A DNA stretch of 50,691 nt, taken from positions 1 through 50,691 of the forward strand of contig CAJBVW010000360.1 of assembly GCA_903959175.1 (NCBI GenBank). Direction: 5' to 3'. The notes beneath the pieces were generated by a model. That model did not search any database, had not been told where the DNA came from, and saw nothing but the letters and a program-made list of their open reading frames with translations. This document shows, piece after piece, positions 34,845 to 41,169 of the stretch. The position numbers and the translations under genes were made by a program. The DNA comes from an uncultured Pseudomonadota bacterium. Its GTDB lineage: Bacteria; Myxococcota_A; UBA796; SXON01. Numbering within the stretch: position 1 is the first letter of the stretch; every line of letters begins with the position of its first letter.

Positions 34845-36338
34845 TCAGGAGACCTGCACATGCTTGCCGATGGTGAGCCCGAGCGCCATCACGGTCACCT
34901 GGGGGTTCACGCCGAGGGACGTGGGGAACACGCTCGCGTCGGCCACGTGGAGGTTGCGCCACCCCCACACGCGGCCGTCGGGATCGACCACGGAGCGCGC
35001 GGGATCGTCCCCCATGCGGCAGGTGCCCATCGGGTGGCTCGCGTACAGGCCGATGGCGTGGGCGGGGATGTCGTCCGTCAGCAGCTCGTCGATCTCGCCC
35101 ACGGTGCGGATGCGGCCGACGCCGTGGACGCCCGGCACGACCTCGGTCGCCCCCGCCGCGAAGAACACCCGCGCCGTCGCCCGGAGCCCCGCGAGGATCC
35201 GCGTGCGGTCGAGGTCTCCGAGGTCGTAGACGAGCGAGCTCTCCGTCACCTCGCCGCGCGAGTCCTCGTCGTGCACGACCACGCCCGCGGAGGCGTAGTG
35301 CCGCAGATCCCGCATGAACGCCAACATGTCGTCCCCCACGAGCGGGAAGGACAGGAAGTACTGGTCCGGCGGCATCGAGAAGGTCTGGAGGAGGTAGCCC
35401 GAGGACCAACAGTCCACGTAGTAGCCCTGGGTCACGCCCTCCCAGGCCACGATCTCCTGGTCGAAGCGCGCCGCGACGCCCGCGGTGGGGTGGATGTGGA
35501 GATTCTGGCCGACGGGCCCGTCGGAGAGGCCGTTGGCGAGCAGGAATCGGGGCGAACCGATCGGACCCGCGCTCACGACGAAGGCCCTGGCGCGCACGCG
35601 GAACGCGCCGTCCTCCACGTAGTCGCCCGGGCGGACGGTGCGGCCGGTGACGGCGACCACGCGGTCCCCCTCGGTCTCGACGCCCACCACCTTGCAGTCG
35701 GCGTAGACCCCCACGTTTCCCGACGCGACGGCCTCGGCGAGGAAGGTGCGGTCGACCGAGAGCTTGCCTCCCGTGGAGCAGCCCTGTTGGCAGGTGCCGC
35801 AGCCCTGGCAGCCCGGGGCCGAGCGCGCCATCCACGCCCCGGCGAGCCCGAGGGCCTCGGCGCCCGCGCGGAAGATGTGGTTGTTGTTCCGCTGGACCTC
35901 CGGCGGGTTGACCGTGACGCCGATGGTCCGCCAGATGCGGTCGAAGCAGGCGCCCATCCACGCGTCCGTCAGGTGGTGGCAGCCGAAGCGGGTGCGCCAG
36001 TCCTCCAGCACGGCCTCGGGCGTGCGGAAGCAGATCGCGCTGTTGACGAGCGTGCTGCCGCCGACGCCGCGGCCGCCGGGCATGGGGATGATGCAGTTCC
36101 CGCGCGTGGCCCGGGTGCCGCGCCCCGCGTAGAGGTGCTTGAACGCCCAGGGTGCGCGCCCCTGGAACTGCTCGGGGAGCCAGCGCCGGCCCTCCTCCAC
36201 GACGACGACGGACAGCCCGCGCTCCGCCAGGGCCGCGGCCGTGGCGCTCCCGCCCGCGCCGGAGCCGATCACGCACACGTCGGCCTCGAGGTCGAGGTGG
36301 GCGGGGTAGCCCTCGAAGCCGTGGTGGCCGGCCCTCAC
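34845..36338 (-). CDS. GMC-family FAD oxidoreductase
   Basis: A 497-residue flavoprotein. The FAD-binding GSGAGGSATAAALAERG is near residue 20, the GMC signature GRGVGGSTLVNSAICF near 75, and a Cys-rich segment CQGCGTCQQGCSTGGKLS near 165 seen in related membrane-bound dehydrogenases. The active-site region near the end holds SHPMGTCRMG and VNPQVTVMALG. It oxidises an alcohol or sugar alcohol; the substrate is unknown. GTG 36338 is chosen because it overlaps the small-subunit stop as GTGA and opens directly on the FAD domain. It has no signal peptide and probably travels with its Tat-tagged partner. The usual third subunit, a cytochrome c, is not next to it. Confidence 0.88.
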   Translation of the reverse strand: MRAGHHGFEGYPAHLDLEADVCVIGSGAGGSATAAALAERGLSVVVVEEGRRWLPEQFQGRAPWAFKHLYAGRGTRATRGNCIIPMPGGRGVGGSTLVNSAICFRTPEAVLEDWRTRFGCHHLTDAWMGACFDRIWRTIGVTVNPPEVQRNNNHIFRAGAEALGLAGAWMARSAPGCQGCGTCQQGCSTGGKLSVDRTFLAEAVASGNVGVYADCKVVGVETEGDRVVAVTGRTVRPGDYVEDGAFRVRARAFVVSAGPIGSPRFLLANGLSDGPVGQNLHIHPTAGVAARFDQEIVAWEGVTQGYYVDCWSSGYLLQTFSMPPDQYFLSFPLVGDDMLAFMRDLRHYASAGVVVHDEDSRGEVTESSLVYDLGDLDRTRILAGLRATARVFFAAGATEVVPGVHGVGRIRTVGEIDELLTDDIPAHAIGLYASHPMGTCRMGDDPARSVVDPDGRVWGWRNLHVADASVFPTSLGVNPQVTVMALGLTIGKHVQVS

Positions 36339-36838
36339 GACGCGGCCCGGTGGCAGGTGGGGCTCCACCCCAAGCGATCCATGACCGCAGGGGCGTTGAA
36401 GAAGGCCATCCCGAGCACGCTCTTGAGCCCGTCGTACGCGAGGCGGCGAGGGAGGATGCCGGGGTCCGACCAGGTGGAGAGCACGTCCCGCTGCTCCTCG
36501 AGGGAGAGGGACGTGAAGGTGGCGCCGCGCGAGGCGAGCGTGCCGGCCTCGACCGCGCGGAGGAGGTAGCGGAACACGGGCTGCACGACGGGATCGAGCT
36601 CCTCGGCGAGGAGCGTGTCGACGAGGAGGGGGAGGTCGACGTCGGCCGCGGACACACCCATGCTGCTCCCCGGCGGGAAAAACGCGCCCCCGATCGCGAC
36701 GACCAGCGCGATCTCGCCCGCGGAGAGCAGACGGAAGCCCGGCGCCGCGCCCGGCAGCACCGAGATCGGCACGCCGAGGGCGGTGAGGCTCGCGGCGGCA
36801 GTGCCGGAGAGCAGAAGCGAGCGTCGGCTGAACATCAT
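36335..36838 (-). CDS. Tat-exported small subunit, gluconate 2-dehydrogenase subunit 3-like
   Basis: A 167-residue protein that starts MMFSRRSLLLSG, a twin-arginine signal followed by a hydrophobic stretch. The mature part (LLSAGEIALVVAIGGAFFPPG) fits the gluconate 2-dehydrogenase subunit 3 family, which accompanies GMC flavoprotein subunits. In known FAD-dependent dehydrogenases this small subunit carries the Tat signal and escorts the folded catalytic subunit to the periplasm. Its stop overlaps the GMC start as GTGA, ensuring equal synthesis. The two genes form a minus-strand operon facing the ILVBL-like gene. Confidence 0.83.
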   Translation of the reverse strand: MMFSRRSLLLSGTAAASLTALGVPISVLPGAAPGFRLLSAGEIALVVAIGGAFFPPGSSMGVSAADVDLPLLVDTLLAEELDPVVQPVFRYLLRAVEAGTLASRGATFTSLSLEEQRDVLSTWSDPGILPRRLAYDGLKSVLGMAFFNAPAVMDRLGWSPTCHRAAS

Positions 36839-36891
36839 CCGTGGAGACGATAGCCGCGGAACCCCAAACCGACCAGAGGGTCGATTCCGAA

Positions 36892-36911
36892 GTGCGTATT
36901 ATTTTACGCAC
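36892..36911. promoter_or_regulatory. Operator-like inverted repeat GTGCGTA-N6-TACGCAC
   Basis: A 7-bp perfect inverted repeat with a six-base A/T spacer lies between the divergent GMC operon and the ILVBL-like gene. It overlaps TATTAT (36897-36902), a plus-strand -10 candidate, and ATTTTA (36901-36906), which reads TAAAAT as a minus-strand -10. A dimeric regulator bound here could switch both sides. No regulator gene is adjacent. Confidence 0.5.
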
Positions 36912-37017
36912 CCGTCGGGACCGACGGACGCGCGTTTTTCGGAGGGGTGCGAAAGGATCTACGCATGCTCGGCACCGCGTGACGGTCGGGTTAGAAGCCG
37001 GGGAATCCGGAGCACCC

Positions 37018-38640
37018 GTGCCGTACGTCCATGGTGGGAACCTCGTCGCCCAGGCCCTCGCGCGGGAGGGCGTCTCCCACGTCTTCACCCTCTGCGGCGG
37101 GCACATCCAGCACATCTACGACGGCTGCCTGGACGAGGGGATCCGCGTCGTCGACCTCCGGCACGAGCAGGCCGCCGGCCACTGCGCCGAGGGCTGGGCG
37201 CGCGCCACCGGGCAGACGGGCGTCGCCCTCGTCACCGCCGGTCCCGGCCTGACCGACGCGGTGACCGCCGCCGCCAACGCCCACCGCGGCGGCGTGCCGA
37301 TGATCCTCATCGGCGGCCAGGGCCCGCGCTTCTTCTCCGGGATGGGCAGCCTCCAGGAGATGGACCACGTCACGCTGATGCGGAGCATCACGAAGTGGAG
37401 CGTGCAGGTCCCCGAGACGCGGCGGATCCCCGACTTCCTCGCCACCGCCTTCCGCAAGGCGAACTCCGGCGTCCCCGGTCCGGTGTTCCTCGAGATGCCG
37501 CTCGACGTGCTCATGAACATGGAGGACACCGCCGGCCTCTCCATCCCGACCGACTACCGCACCCGTCACGTCCCGGGCGGCGACCCGGCGGGCATCCAGG
37601 CCGCGGCGGACGTGCTCTCGAAGGCCGAGCGCCCGGTCGCCGTCGTCGGCACCCAGTGGTGGTTCAGCCCGTACCGGGCCGCGATCCAGGAGTTCCTGGC
37701 CGCGTACGACCTCCCCGTCTTCCTCAACGGCGGCGCGCGCGGCGCGGTGCGCCCGGACGACCCCCGCTTCTTCCGCCTCTGCCGCGGCAAGGCCCTCCAG
37801 AACGCCGACGCCATCGTGATCTTCGGCACCCCGTGGGACTTCCGGCTCGGCTACGGGCAGGACATCGCGCCGGGCACGAAGGTCGTCCAGGTCGACCTCG
37901 ATCCGGACGTGATCGGCCACAACCGCGGCGCCCAGGTCGGCATCGTGGGGGACACGGGGCTCGTCATGCAGCAGCTCGCCCAGGCGGGCCGTCGCTCCGG
38001 CGAGGGCTGGATCAAGCAGGTGCGCGCCATGGAAGACGTGCGCGCGGCGAAAATGCAGGGCGAGATGAACAGCACCGACGTGCCGATCAACCCGCTCCGC
38101 TTCTCCAAGGAGCTCGCGCGCTCGATCACCGAGACCACCACCGTCGTCTGTGACGGCGGGGACATCGTCGGCACCGCGGCCAAGGTGGTGGACGTGTGGC
38201 GCCCCGGCCACTGGATGGATCCGGGCCCGCTCGGCACCCTCGGCGTCGGCCCCAGCTTCGCCATCGCGGCCAAGCTCGCGCGCCCCGCGGACCCCGCCAT
38301 CATCATCTACGGAGACGGCTCCTTCGGCCTCAACGGCATGGAATTCGAGGCCGCCGCCCGCCAGGGCATCCCCATCGTCGGCGTGATGGGGAACGACGCC
38401 GCGTGGACGCAGATCCGGCGCGGGCAGGTCCAGCTCTTCGGGGACCGCGCGCCGGCCACCAAGCTCGACTACACCCGCTACGACAAGATGGTCGAGGCCC
38501 TCGGCGGCCACGGCGAGTACGTCGAGCAGCCCGAGGACATCCACCCCGCGATCCAGCGCGCGCTCGACAGCGGAAAGCCGGCGCTGGTGAACGTGAAGAT
38601 CGGCAGCTCGTCCTTCCGCGAGGGCGCGATCAGCGTCTGA
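37018..38640 (+). CDS. Thiamine-diphosphate enzyme, ILVBL/2-hydroxyacyl-CoA lyase-like
   Basis: A 540-residue ThDP enzyme of the acetolactate synthase fold. Its N-terminus (GGNLVAQALAREGVSHVFTL, then CGGHIQHIYDG) and the catalytic-Glu region DLRHEQAAGHCAEG near 48 resemble human ILVBL and 2-hydroxyacyl-CoA lyases. The ThDP-Mg site is GDGSFGLNGMEFEAA near residue 438 with VMGNDAAW after it. These lyases cleave 2-hydroxyacyl-CoA to formyl-CoA and an aldehyde; the acetolactate synthase route is less likely because no small subunit follows. GTG 37018 is chosen for its GGAG six bases upstream; GTG 36979, coupled to a five-codon mini-ORF, is an alternative. It is divergent from the GMC operon. Confidence 0.82.
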   Translation: MPYVHGGNLVAQALAREGVSHVFTLCGGHIQHIYDGCLDEGIRVVDLRHEQAAGHCAEGWARATGQTGVALVTAGPGLTDAVTAAANAHRGGVPMILIGGQGPRFFSGMGSLQEMDHVTLMRSITKWSVQVPETRRIPDFLATAFRKANSGVPGPVFLEMPLDVLMNMEDTAGLSIPTDYRTRHVPGGDPAGIQAAADVLSKAERPVAVVGTQWWFSPYRAAIQEFLAAYDLPVFLNGGARGAVRPDDPRFFRLCRGKALQNADAIVIFGTPWDFRLGYGQDIAPGTKVVQVDLDPDVIGHNRGAQVGIVGDTGLVMQQLAQAGRRSGEGWIKQVRAMEDVRAAKMQGEMNSTDVPINPLRFSKELARSITETTTVVCDGGDIVGTAAKVVDVWRPGHWMDPGPLGTLGVGPSFAIAAKLARPADPAIIIYGDGSFGLNGMEFEAAARQGIPIVGVMGNDAAWTQIRRGQVQLFGDRAPATKLDYTRYDKMVEALGGHGEYVEQPEDIHPAIQRALDSGKPALVNVKIGSSSFREGAISV

Positions 38641-39484: not shown

Positions 39485-40297
39485 GTGTCCTCCCCGCCGA
39501 TCGTCGGCCGCCAGGCCGAGACCGAGGCCCTGCACGCCTGCCTGGACGCGGGGAGGCATGTTCTGCTCGAAGGGCCCGTCGGCGTGGGAAAGACCGCCTT
39601 GGCCCATGCGATCTGCCGATCGCTGGGCCGCGGCTTCGTGCGGGTGGACGGAGACGGTCGCTACACCGAGGCCCGCCTCGTCGGCGCCTTCGACCCGCCT
39701 GCGGTGCTCGCCTCCGGCTACCGGCCGGAGCACTTCATCGCCGGGCCGCTCGTGCGCGCCATGCGCGAGGGCGCCGTCCTCTTCGTGAACGAGCTGAACC
39801 GGATGCCCGAGGGCGTCCAGAACGTGCTCCTCCCGGCGATGGACGAGGGGCGCGTGGTCGTCCCCCAGCTCGGCGAGGTGACCGCCGCGCCGGGCTTCGC
39901 CGTCGTCGCGACGCAGAACCCCGCGGAGTTCGTCGCCACCGCCGCGTTGTCCGAGGCACTCCTGGATCGTTTCGAGCTCGTCCGGCTGGACTACCAGTCC
40001 GAGGCCGAGGAGCTCGCCATCGTGACGCAGGACACGCGGTGCAGCCCCGGCGCGGCCCTCGTGGCGCAGGCCGTCGCCCTCACCCGCGCGACCCGCACCG
40101 ACCCCCGCTTCCGCCGCGGCGCCTCGGTGCGCGCCGCCATCGCCATCGCCGACATCGCCGCCCGCCTCGGCGGGGACGTGACGCGCGCCGCCGCCATCGC
40201 GCTCCCCACGCGGGTCGAGCTGTTGGACCCGCAGGGCACCTCCCTCCCCGACCTGCTCGCGGACCTCAAAAAAAAACTAGCGATCGCCGCCCCCTGA
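39485..40297 (+). CDS. MoxR-family AAA+ ATPase
   Basis: A 270-residue AAA+ protein of the MoxR group. Walker A is GPVGVGKTA near residue 30, Walker B is VLFVNELNRMP near 98, and sensor 1 is VVATQNPAEF near 140. MoxR ATPases pair with a von Willebrand A protein to insert metals or remodel complexes; the VWA gene follows at once. It begins at GTG 39485, 7 bp after the Bax-inhibitor gene. The last codons run through an A9 tract (Lys-Lys-Lys) and stop at TGA 40295-40297. A -1 shift on the tract would continue straight into the VWA reading frame. Confidence 0.9.
   Translation: MSSPPIVGRQAETEALHACLDAGRHVLLEGPVGVGKTALAHAICRSLGRGFVRVDGDGRYTEARLVGAFDPPAVLASGYRPEHFIAGPLVRAMREGAVLFVNELNRMPEGVQNVLLPAMDEGRVVVPQLGEVTAAPGFAVVATQNPAEFVATAALSEALLDRFELVRLDYQSEAEELAIVTQDTRCSPGAALVAQAVALTRATRTDPRFRRGASVRAAIAIADIAARLGGDVTRAAAIALPTRVELLDPQGTSLPDLLADLKKKLAIAAP
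40268..40276 (+). promoter_or_regulatory. A9 homopolymer, potential frameshift or transcript-slippage site
   Basis: Nine adenines in an otherwise GC-rich region lie 18 bp before the moxR stop. The in-frame reading is AAA AAA AAA. One added A in the transcript or a -1 ribosome slip moves into the VWA frame, which is open from here to 41169 with no stop. An 8-bp palindrome GCGATCGC follows at 40280-40287. A sequencing error in run length is the main alternative. Confidence 0.5.
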
Positions 40298-40405
40298 TCG
40301 ACGGCCCCGAGGCCCCGGCACCCTCCGAGCTGACGCCCTTCGGCAGCAACGAGGCCCCCGCGCTCACGACGGGTGGCGAGCCGATCTCCACGCTCCCGAG
40401 CGGCT

Positions 40406-40411
40406 GGGAGG
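40406..40411 (+). promoter_or_regulatory. Shine-Dalgarno GGGAGG before GTG 40417
   Basis: GGGAGG lies five bases before the first canonical start codon (GTG) in the VWA frame. It supports independent initiation at 40417, although the same bases also encode Trp-Glu-Ala in the upstream coding-like stretch. Confidence 0.5.
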
Positions 40412-40416
40412 CGGCC

Positions 40417-41169
40417 GTGAGCTGGCAACGCGCGCGCAAGGAGCTGCCCCCGGGCCTCTACCGCCAGCAGGTGCTCGACCGCGCGATCGACGGCATCCTC
40501 GCCCACGCCCGGCGCCTCCTCCGCCACGCCGCGCGCCCGCACCGCAGCGTCGAGGTCGCGTGGCCCGAGGACGGCGAGCTCGACCTCGAGAGCACCCTCG
40601 AGCAGCCGCGCCCCTGGGGCCCCGCGGACGTGCGCCTGACGCGCATCGTGCCCCGCGAGGTCGACGTCGTCGCGGTCCTGGACATGTCGCTCTCGATGAC
40701 CGGCGAGAAGATCGCGCTCGTCGCCGTGGCCGCGGCGATCCTGCGGCTGCGGCTCGACAACGTCGCGGTGGTCGCCTTCGACACCCACCCCCACGTCCTC
40801 GTGCGGGTCGGCGAGGAGGTCTCCCCGCGGGACCTCGTGCGCCGCGTGCTCTCCGTGCCCGCGCAGGGCTACACCAACATCGAGGGCGGGCTCGGCGCGG
40901 CGTCGGAGCAGCTCCGGCGCTCCTCCCGTCGGGAGCGCGTGGGCCTGCTCCTCACCGACGGCGTCGCGAACGTGGGCCGCGATCCCGTGGTGGCGGCGGG
41001 GCGCTTCCCGCGCCTGCACGTCGTCCACCTCGGGGACCACCACCCCCAGGGCGCGCGCGCGTGCCGCGGCATGGCGCAGGCGGGCCGGGGCCGCATCTAC
41101 CGGGCGCGCACCTACGCCGACCTCCCGGACGTCGTCCGGCGGGCGGTTCGCGAGCTCTTTCGAGGCTGA
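40417..41169 (+). CDS. Von Willebrand factor A domain protein, MoxR partner
   Basis: From GTG 40417 the protein is 250 residues. A helical N-terminal part (QQVLDRAIDGILAHARRLLR) precedes a VWA domain with the metal site DMSLSMTGEK near residue 90, a Thr-containing turn QGYTNIEGG and LLTDGVANVG near 180. MoxR ATPases and such proteins act together in cofactor insertion, as in CoxD/CoxE or NorQ/NorD. The frame is open and strongly coding-like upstream to 40277: 43 of 47 codons from 40276 to 40416 end in G or C. No ATG, GTG or TTG occurs there, only CTG at 40294. The true N-terminus may therefore be a fusion with MoxR. Confidence 0.82.
   Translation: MSWQRARKELPPGLYRQQVLDRAIDGILAHARRLLRHAARPHRSVEVAWPEDGELDLESTLEQPRPWGPADVRLTRIVPREVDVVAVLDMSLSMTGEKIALVAVAAAILRLRLDNVAVVAFDTHPHVLVRVGEEVSPRDLVRRVLSVPAQGYTNIEGGLGAASEQLRRSSRRERVGLLLTDGVANVGRDPVVAAGRFPRLHVVHLGDHHPQGARACRGMAQAGRGRIYRARTYADLPDVVRRAVRELFRG

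Follow-up and report, generated by a model that had tools for sequence, protein, structure and literature searches.

At the end of a moxR-like gene in the 50,691-nucleotide stretch of DNA analyzed here (the window), nine adenines stand at the entrance to an open reading frame for a VWA protein, which raises the question of whether the two frames are separate genes or one gene whose second half is reached by a slip at the adenines. The moxR-like AAA+ ATPase gene (39485..40297, + strand) has a zero-frame product of 270 aa and 28.4 kDa, and the A9 tract (40268..40276, +), the putative slip site, reads AAA AAA AAA in the moxR frame and contains an in-phase A_AAA_AAA heptamer at 40270-40276. An earlier note, made from the letters of the window, had placed the moxR stop 18 bp (six codons) beyond this tract, and this was confirmed: the gene ends in ...DLKKK-LAIAAP-stop, with LAIAAP and the stop codon (40295-40297) forming the zero-frame tail of the short product (40277..40297, +). 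Across relatives, the zero-frame tail past the slip heptamer amounts to 0-12 codons. The VWA frame that would be read after the slip (40276..41169, +) is, as the note had claimed, open from the tract to 41169 and lies at -1 relative to moxR; furthermore, our recount agreed that the 47-codon stretch leading from the tract up to GTG 40417 has G/C at the end of 43 codons and lacks ATG, GTG and TTG altogether. The openness of the frame is weak evidence, since the GC content is 73% and the VWA frame is also open for about 264 codons upstream of the A9. The tract itself occurs once in the whole 7,209,435-base (7.2 Mb) metagenome-assembled genome (MAG), both strands included, and no run of eight A arose in 100 shuffles of the window; the window's A9 is not a chance run. 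In loci of at least 65% GC, lysine codons outside the tract are AAG in 165 of 202 cases.

Relatives were sought at the levels of the host's family, order, class and phylum, among named genome contigs, and in the phylum to which a Bacteriovoracaceae MAG (G379), filed by NCBI under Bdellovibrionota, belongs. Sixty loci with both genes, including the window, were compared, and four others were left out, having no moxR on the stretch examined; the 60 loci are related by descent, and several of the genomes are incomplete MAGs. A full-length relative on plasmids was not found. Two loci (L080 and L082) come from public MAGs titled Bifidobacterium breve and Klebsiella pneumoniae, respectively, whose contigs group with the Myxococcota family and are probably mislabelled.

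The comparison of homologous loci proposed in the earlier note revealed a split arrangement in 60/60, with the VWA frame at -1 to moxR in Myxococcota and in the phylum of G379 alike, and with a run of adenines at the moxR end, namely A9 (26 loci), A7 (16), A10 (16), A11 (one) or A6G (one), A8 being represented by none. An in-phase A_AAA_AA[A/G] heptamer is present in every one of the 60 loci, and VWA identity among the relatives goes down to about 30%. In-frame moxR-VWA fusions were absent from all 60, though a single added A would be enough to bring the two frames together at any locus. On the tree, the run changed between the short and the long class about six times, three of these changes being forced by well-supported branches, and the -1 frame was retained through all of them. 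A frame kept at -1 with no locus fused implies a need for both products, short and long. Moreover, a tryptophan is kept in 60/60 loci (W46 of P0001, codon 40405..40407, +), upstream of GTG 40417, and a PTLNLT/PTLDLT motif follows directly after the slip site in several Myxococcota loci; a downstream frame at -1, with a conserved W ahead of any usable start, is the arrangement of a programmed -1 frameshift. The proposal that the A9 is a slip site joining the MoxR ATPase to its VWA partner is supported by this conservation. From the sequence comparison, we consider it very probable that the two frames are one recoded moxR-VWA unit, which would produce a short ATPase and, via a -1 slip, a minority of a long ATPase-linker-VWA protein. 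The family (60/60 loci, two phyla) would thereby be added to the short list of well-supported bacterial cellular frameshift genes.

The long product would be the same whether made by a -1 slip or by one extra A in the RNA, as the earlier note had held for the joining of both proteins: either route predicts a protein of 561 aa, with a computed mass of 60.3 kDa instead of the roughly 56 kDa given there. In its ATPase half, Pfam matches are AAA_5 (83 bits) and AAA_3 (64 bits), the best NCBIfam match is GvpN (97 bits, below the cut-off of 266.8), and the top PDB sequence matches are midasin (140 bits), NorQ (63) and CbbQ (45); by these matches the ATPase is MoxR-like (MoxR/NorQ/GvpN/midasin-like). 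The midasin match, to a eukaryotic AAA domain, stands well above those to NorQ and CbbQ. A predicted flexible, acidic and proline-rich linker (40276..40377, +) leads from the ATPase to the VWA fold, with residues 1-36 of P0001 scoring less than 50 in AF2 pLDDT (mean pLDDT of the model, 85.8), a calculated pI of 4.1 and seven prolines in 40 residues. The VWA domain (40663..41136, +) is matched by Pfam VWA (37 bits) and VWA_CoxE (42 bits) and has an intact MIDAS motif, DMSLS (40681-40695), of which residues D138, S140 and S142 are invariant in alignments of 28 and 17 rows. Among solved structures, NorD of the NorQD complexes is the top fold match to the VWA model (E 9e-9), and a MoxR-like AAA+ ATPase adjoining a VWA protein with a MIDAS motif is the arrangement of the MoxR AAA+/VWA pairs of CbbQ/NorQ type.

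If the locus is one recoded gene, most transcripts or ribosomes would yield the 270-aa MoxR ATPase, and a fraction would slip by -1 at the A-run, either by re-pairing of the ribosome on A_AAA_AAA or by RNA polymerase adding one A, and so give the 561-aa ATPase-linker-VWA protein. The slip site would then set the ratio of short to long subunits in a mixed AAA+ ring (hexamer), probably with few VWA heads, and these heads may pick the target to be remodelled by the ring. Such a scheme would provide a simple account of how an asymmetric AAA+/VWA complex is built in a fixed ratio.

The closest precedent is the frameshifting of chlD, which moxR-VWA would resemble in its way of working and not as a member of the same family. 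In chlD or "magnesium chelatase" genes, a -1 shift at A_AAA_AAA/G, or at a longer A-run, links AAA+ to VWA, and one gene yields two products, a short ATPase and a longer protein with both ATPase and VWA, as is predicted here (PMC3711429, PMC9227772); however, the genera named for the chlD cluster do not include the present hosts, and MoxR is unmentioned in both papers. Membership in the chelatase family was rejected (BchD-ChlD 41.6 bits against a cut-off of 499.55), as was membership among cobaltochelatases (Cob-chelat-sub 33.5 bits against 779.45), and CobN/ChlH was found in 0/26 genomes, with control genomes positive. As for MoxR and frameshifting together, the open-licence papers searched contained nothing describing a moxR-VWA gene.

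CbbQO and NorQD also combine a MoxR-type ATPase with a VWA partner (PMC4660213, PMC13036017), but these are two separate proteins, whereas the present locus would be one recoded gene with a tethering linker. In CbbQO, one VWA protein is bound per hexamer, an arrangement that the authors of that study expect to be a general theme (PMC4660213); by analogy, we infer that slipping may supply, from one gene, ATPase subunits in large number and a smaller share to which a VWA head is tethered. Regarding dnaX, that of Thermus thermophilus is alike in its A9 polymerase-slippage run, a naked A9 occurring in moxR-VWA loci, and that of Escherichia coli (A_AAA_AAG, hairpin, Shine-Dalgarno-like stimulator) is alike in the layout of a distant locus (L137), which has A_AAA_AAG preceded by GGGAGG and closely followed by a GC-rich inverted repeat, this repeat being read by eye at a place where the computed fold favours a longer pairing. 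Unlike dnaX, where the slip shortens the product, here it would lengthen it. Midasin (Rea1/MDN1), the closest PDB sequence match of the ATPase, likewise has AAA and VWA/MIDAS on one chain, but with six AAA domains in a single eukaryotic chain. Midasin is not known to be recoded.

Regarding how the slip is made, run length, phase and RNA folding divide the loci. The short runs (A7, A6G) stand in the single phase that gives a complete heptamer (16/16 for A7), and runs of at least nine vary in phase (0, 1, 2). A strong hairpin (z < -1.5) lies a short distance downstream, by a few bases, of 12 of the 17 short runs versus 3 of the 43 runs of at least nine (Fisher p 1.5e-6, a value that ignores shared descent); after the A9 of the window, no hairpin is seen (z -0.3). 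In one genus-level clade, nine A7 loci share a 12-pair stem with compensatory changes at six pairs; its 13 double-changed paired cells compare with 4.3 in shuffles, 0/500 of which were as high, a test that likewise ignores shared descent, and with at most three in slid controls. A short run with such a stem has the build of a ribosomal -1 frameshift site. The presence of hairpins after short runs, and mostly not after long ones, points to ribosomal -1 frameshifting for short runs; for runs of at least nine, the window included, it points to frameshifting or to slippage by RNA polymerase. In E. coli, cassettes of a similar AAA-VWA gene (chlD) with A7, A9 and A11 gave 10, 40 and 63% frameshifting, respectively (PMC3711429), which fits the hairpin being needed to raise A7.

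For the window itself, we give about equal weight to the ribosome and to a slip made by RNA polymerase, with A9 becoming A10 in the RNA as in T. thermophilus dnaX. The variable phase of the long runs and their general lack of a hairpin would suit the polymerase, as would the two-humped distribution of lengths (seven with a hairpin, nine or more without, and no A8 in 60 loci), and slippage by bacterial RNA polymerase is highly efficient on a run as long as A9 (PMC5009743). An A/T run of about nine or more, as expected for transcriptional slippage, is found in the window, and the run is at least nine long in 43/60 loci. However, an in-phase A_AAA_AAA lies within each of the long runs too, and the -1 frame of all 60 loci is the sole direction of this ribosomal slip, which inheritance would explain too. 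The family offers natural pairs of close relatives where ribosomal and transcriptional slipping may have replaced each other, with the demand constant. The absence of A8 between A7 (16 loci) and A9 (26) is perhaps a gap between two slip mechanisms.

Far less probable is that these are two separate genes, the VWA protein being made from GTG 40417 or by ribosomes that reinitiate once past the moxR stop, with the A-run incidental. This rival internal start (40417..40419, +) would give a 250-aa protein, and the GGGAGG that the earlier note reported ahead of it is present (40406-40411), five bases off; but the start is without conservation, being absent even from relatives of the same genus. Homologues starting at the equivalent of this GTG, an outcome that the same note had allowed for, were not found in the homologous loci. 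GTG 40417 stands four codons past the conserved W, inside the folded portion of the confident AF2 model and at the end of its first helix (45-50), and by that model a product begun there would be cut inside the helix. Moreover, 17/60 loci have no start codon between the tract and the conserved W, and a Shine-Dalgarno-like match there or in the 60 nt upstream occurs in 8/60 loci only. Two separate genes would also leave the A-run, the frame and the hairpin without explanation. Beside a fusion made from one recoded gene, the GGGAGG-GTG start could serve for some free VWA protein. Gene callers will split these genes, naming the VWA half from a false start.

A homopolymer miscount, the true gene being a plain A10 fusion, can be practically discounted: the window comes from a MAG and homopolymers are error-prone, but the -1 arrangement is present in 60/60 loci, drawn from many assemblies that include contigs as long as 843-909 kb, which refutes this worry of the earlier note at the level of the family, and A7 runs, where miscounts are rare, share the arrangement, with a covarying hairpin. 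We give just as little credit to a phase-variable contingency locus switched between A9 and A10 by slippage in replication. Poly-A runs readily acquire indels, but such a locus should show in-frame copies alongside out-of-frame ones, where 60/60 are -1, and A7 with a hairpin is not a contingency repeat. That none of the 60 is fused, when one extra A suffices, makes either explanation very unlikely.

With one recoded gene as the preferred reading, leads to its function come from the neighbours. In the phylum of G379, lysine 5,6-aminomutase alpha (kamD, PF09043) is over the cut-off in 56 of 291 genomes and is present in 40 of the 57 genomes with this VWA (co-occurrence, Fisher p 7e-23, which ignores descent). 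VWA and kamD lie at most 6 kb apart in 35 of the 40 genomes with both, and the order kdd-kamD-kamE-moxR/VWA was found in six loci compared gene by gene (L172-L176, L179). Recombinant KamDE undergoes suicide inactivation (PMC3958899), which makes a reactivase role plausible in that phylum, and the moxR-VWA beside kamDE is a candidate B12-enzyme reactivase there. Three genomes (G413, G426 and G524) have two VWA copies each; in G413, one copy is beside kamD and the other is not, which hints at two target classes. As the target in the window, lysine 5,6-aminomutase was rejected: PF09043 is present in 0/71 genomes of the window's class, and kamDE reactivation therefore cannot be the role there.

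A broader account, which we regard as conceivable and rather doubtful when taken as a whole, would be that of an AAA+/VWA machine of ancient origin, made by recoding, with the number of ring subunits bearing VWA heads determined by the slip rate. Its two designs, A7 with a hairpin (ribosome) and naked A9-A11 (polymerase), would be interchangeable, and it would act as an ATP-driven reactivase of lysine 5,6-aminomutase in the phylum of G379 and would serve another enzyme in the window's lineage. Among Myxococcota, no conserved neighbour naming the target was found; the recurrence of a GMC oxidoreductase and a TPP enzyme beside the pair is confined to the window's family and a few others. In the window, positions 34845-38640 hold a TPP-dependent enzyme and a GMC oxidoreductase whose partner is gluconate 2-dehydrogenase subunit 3-like, and these recur beside the pair in some relatives of the family.
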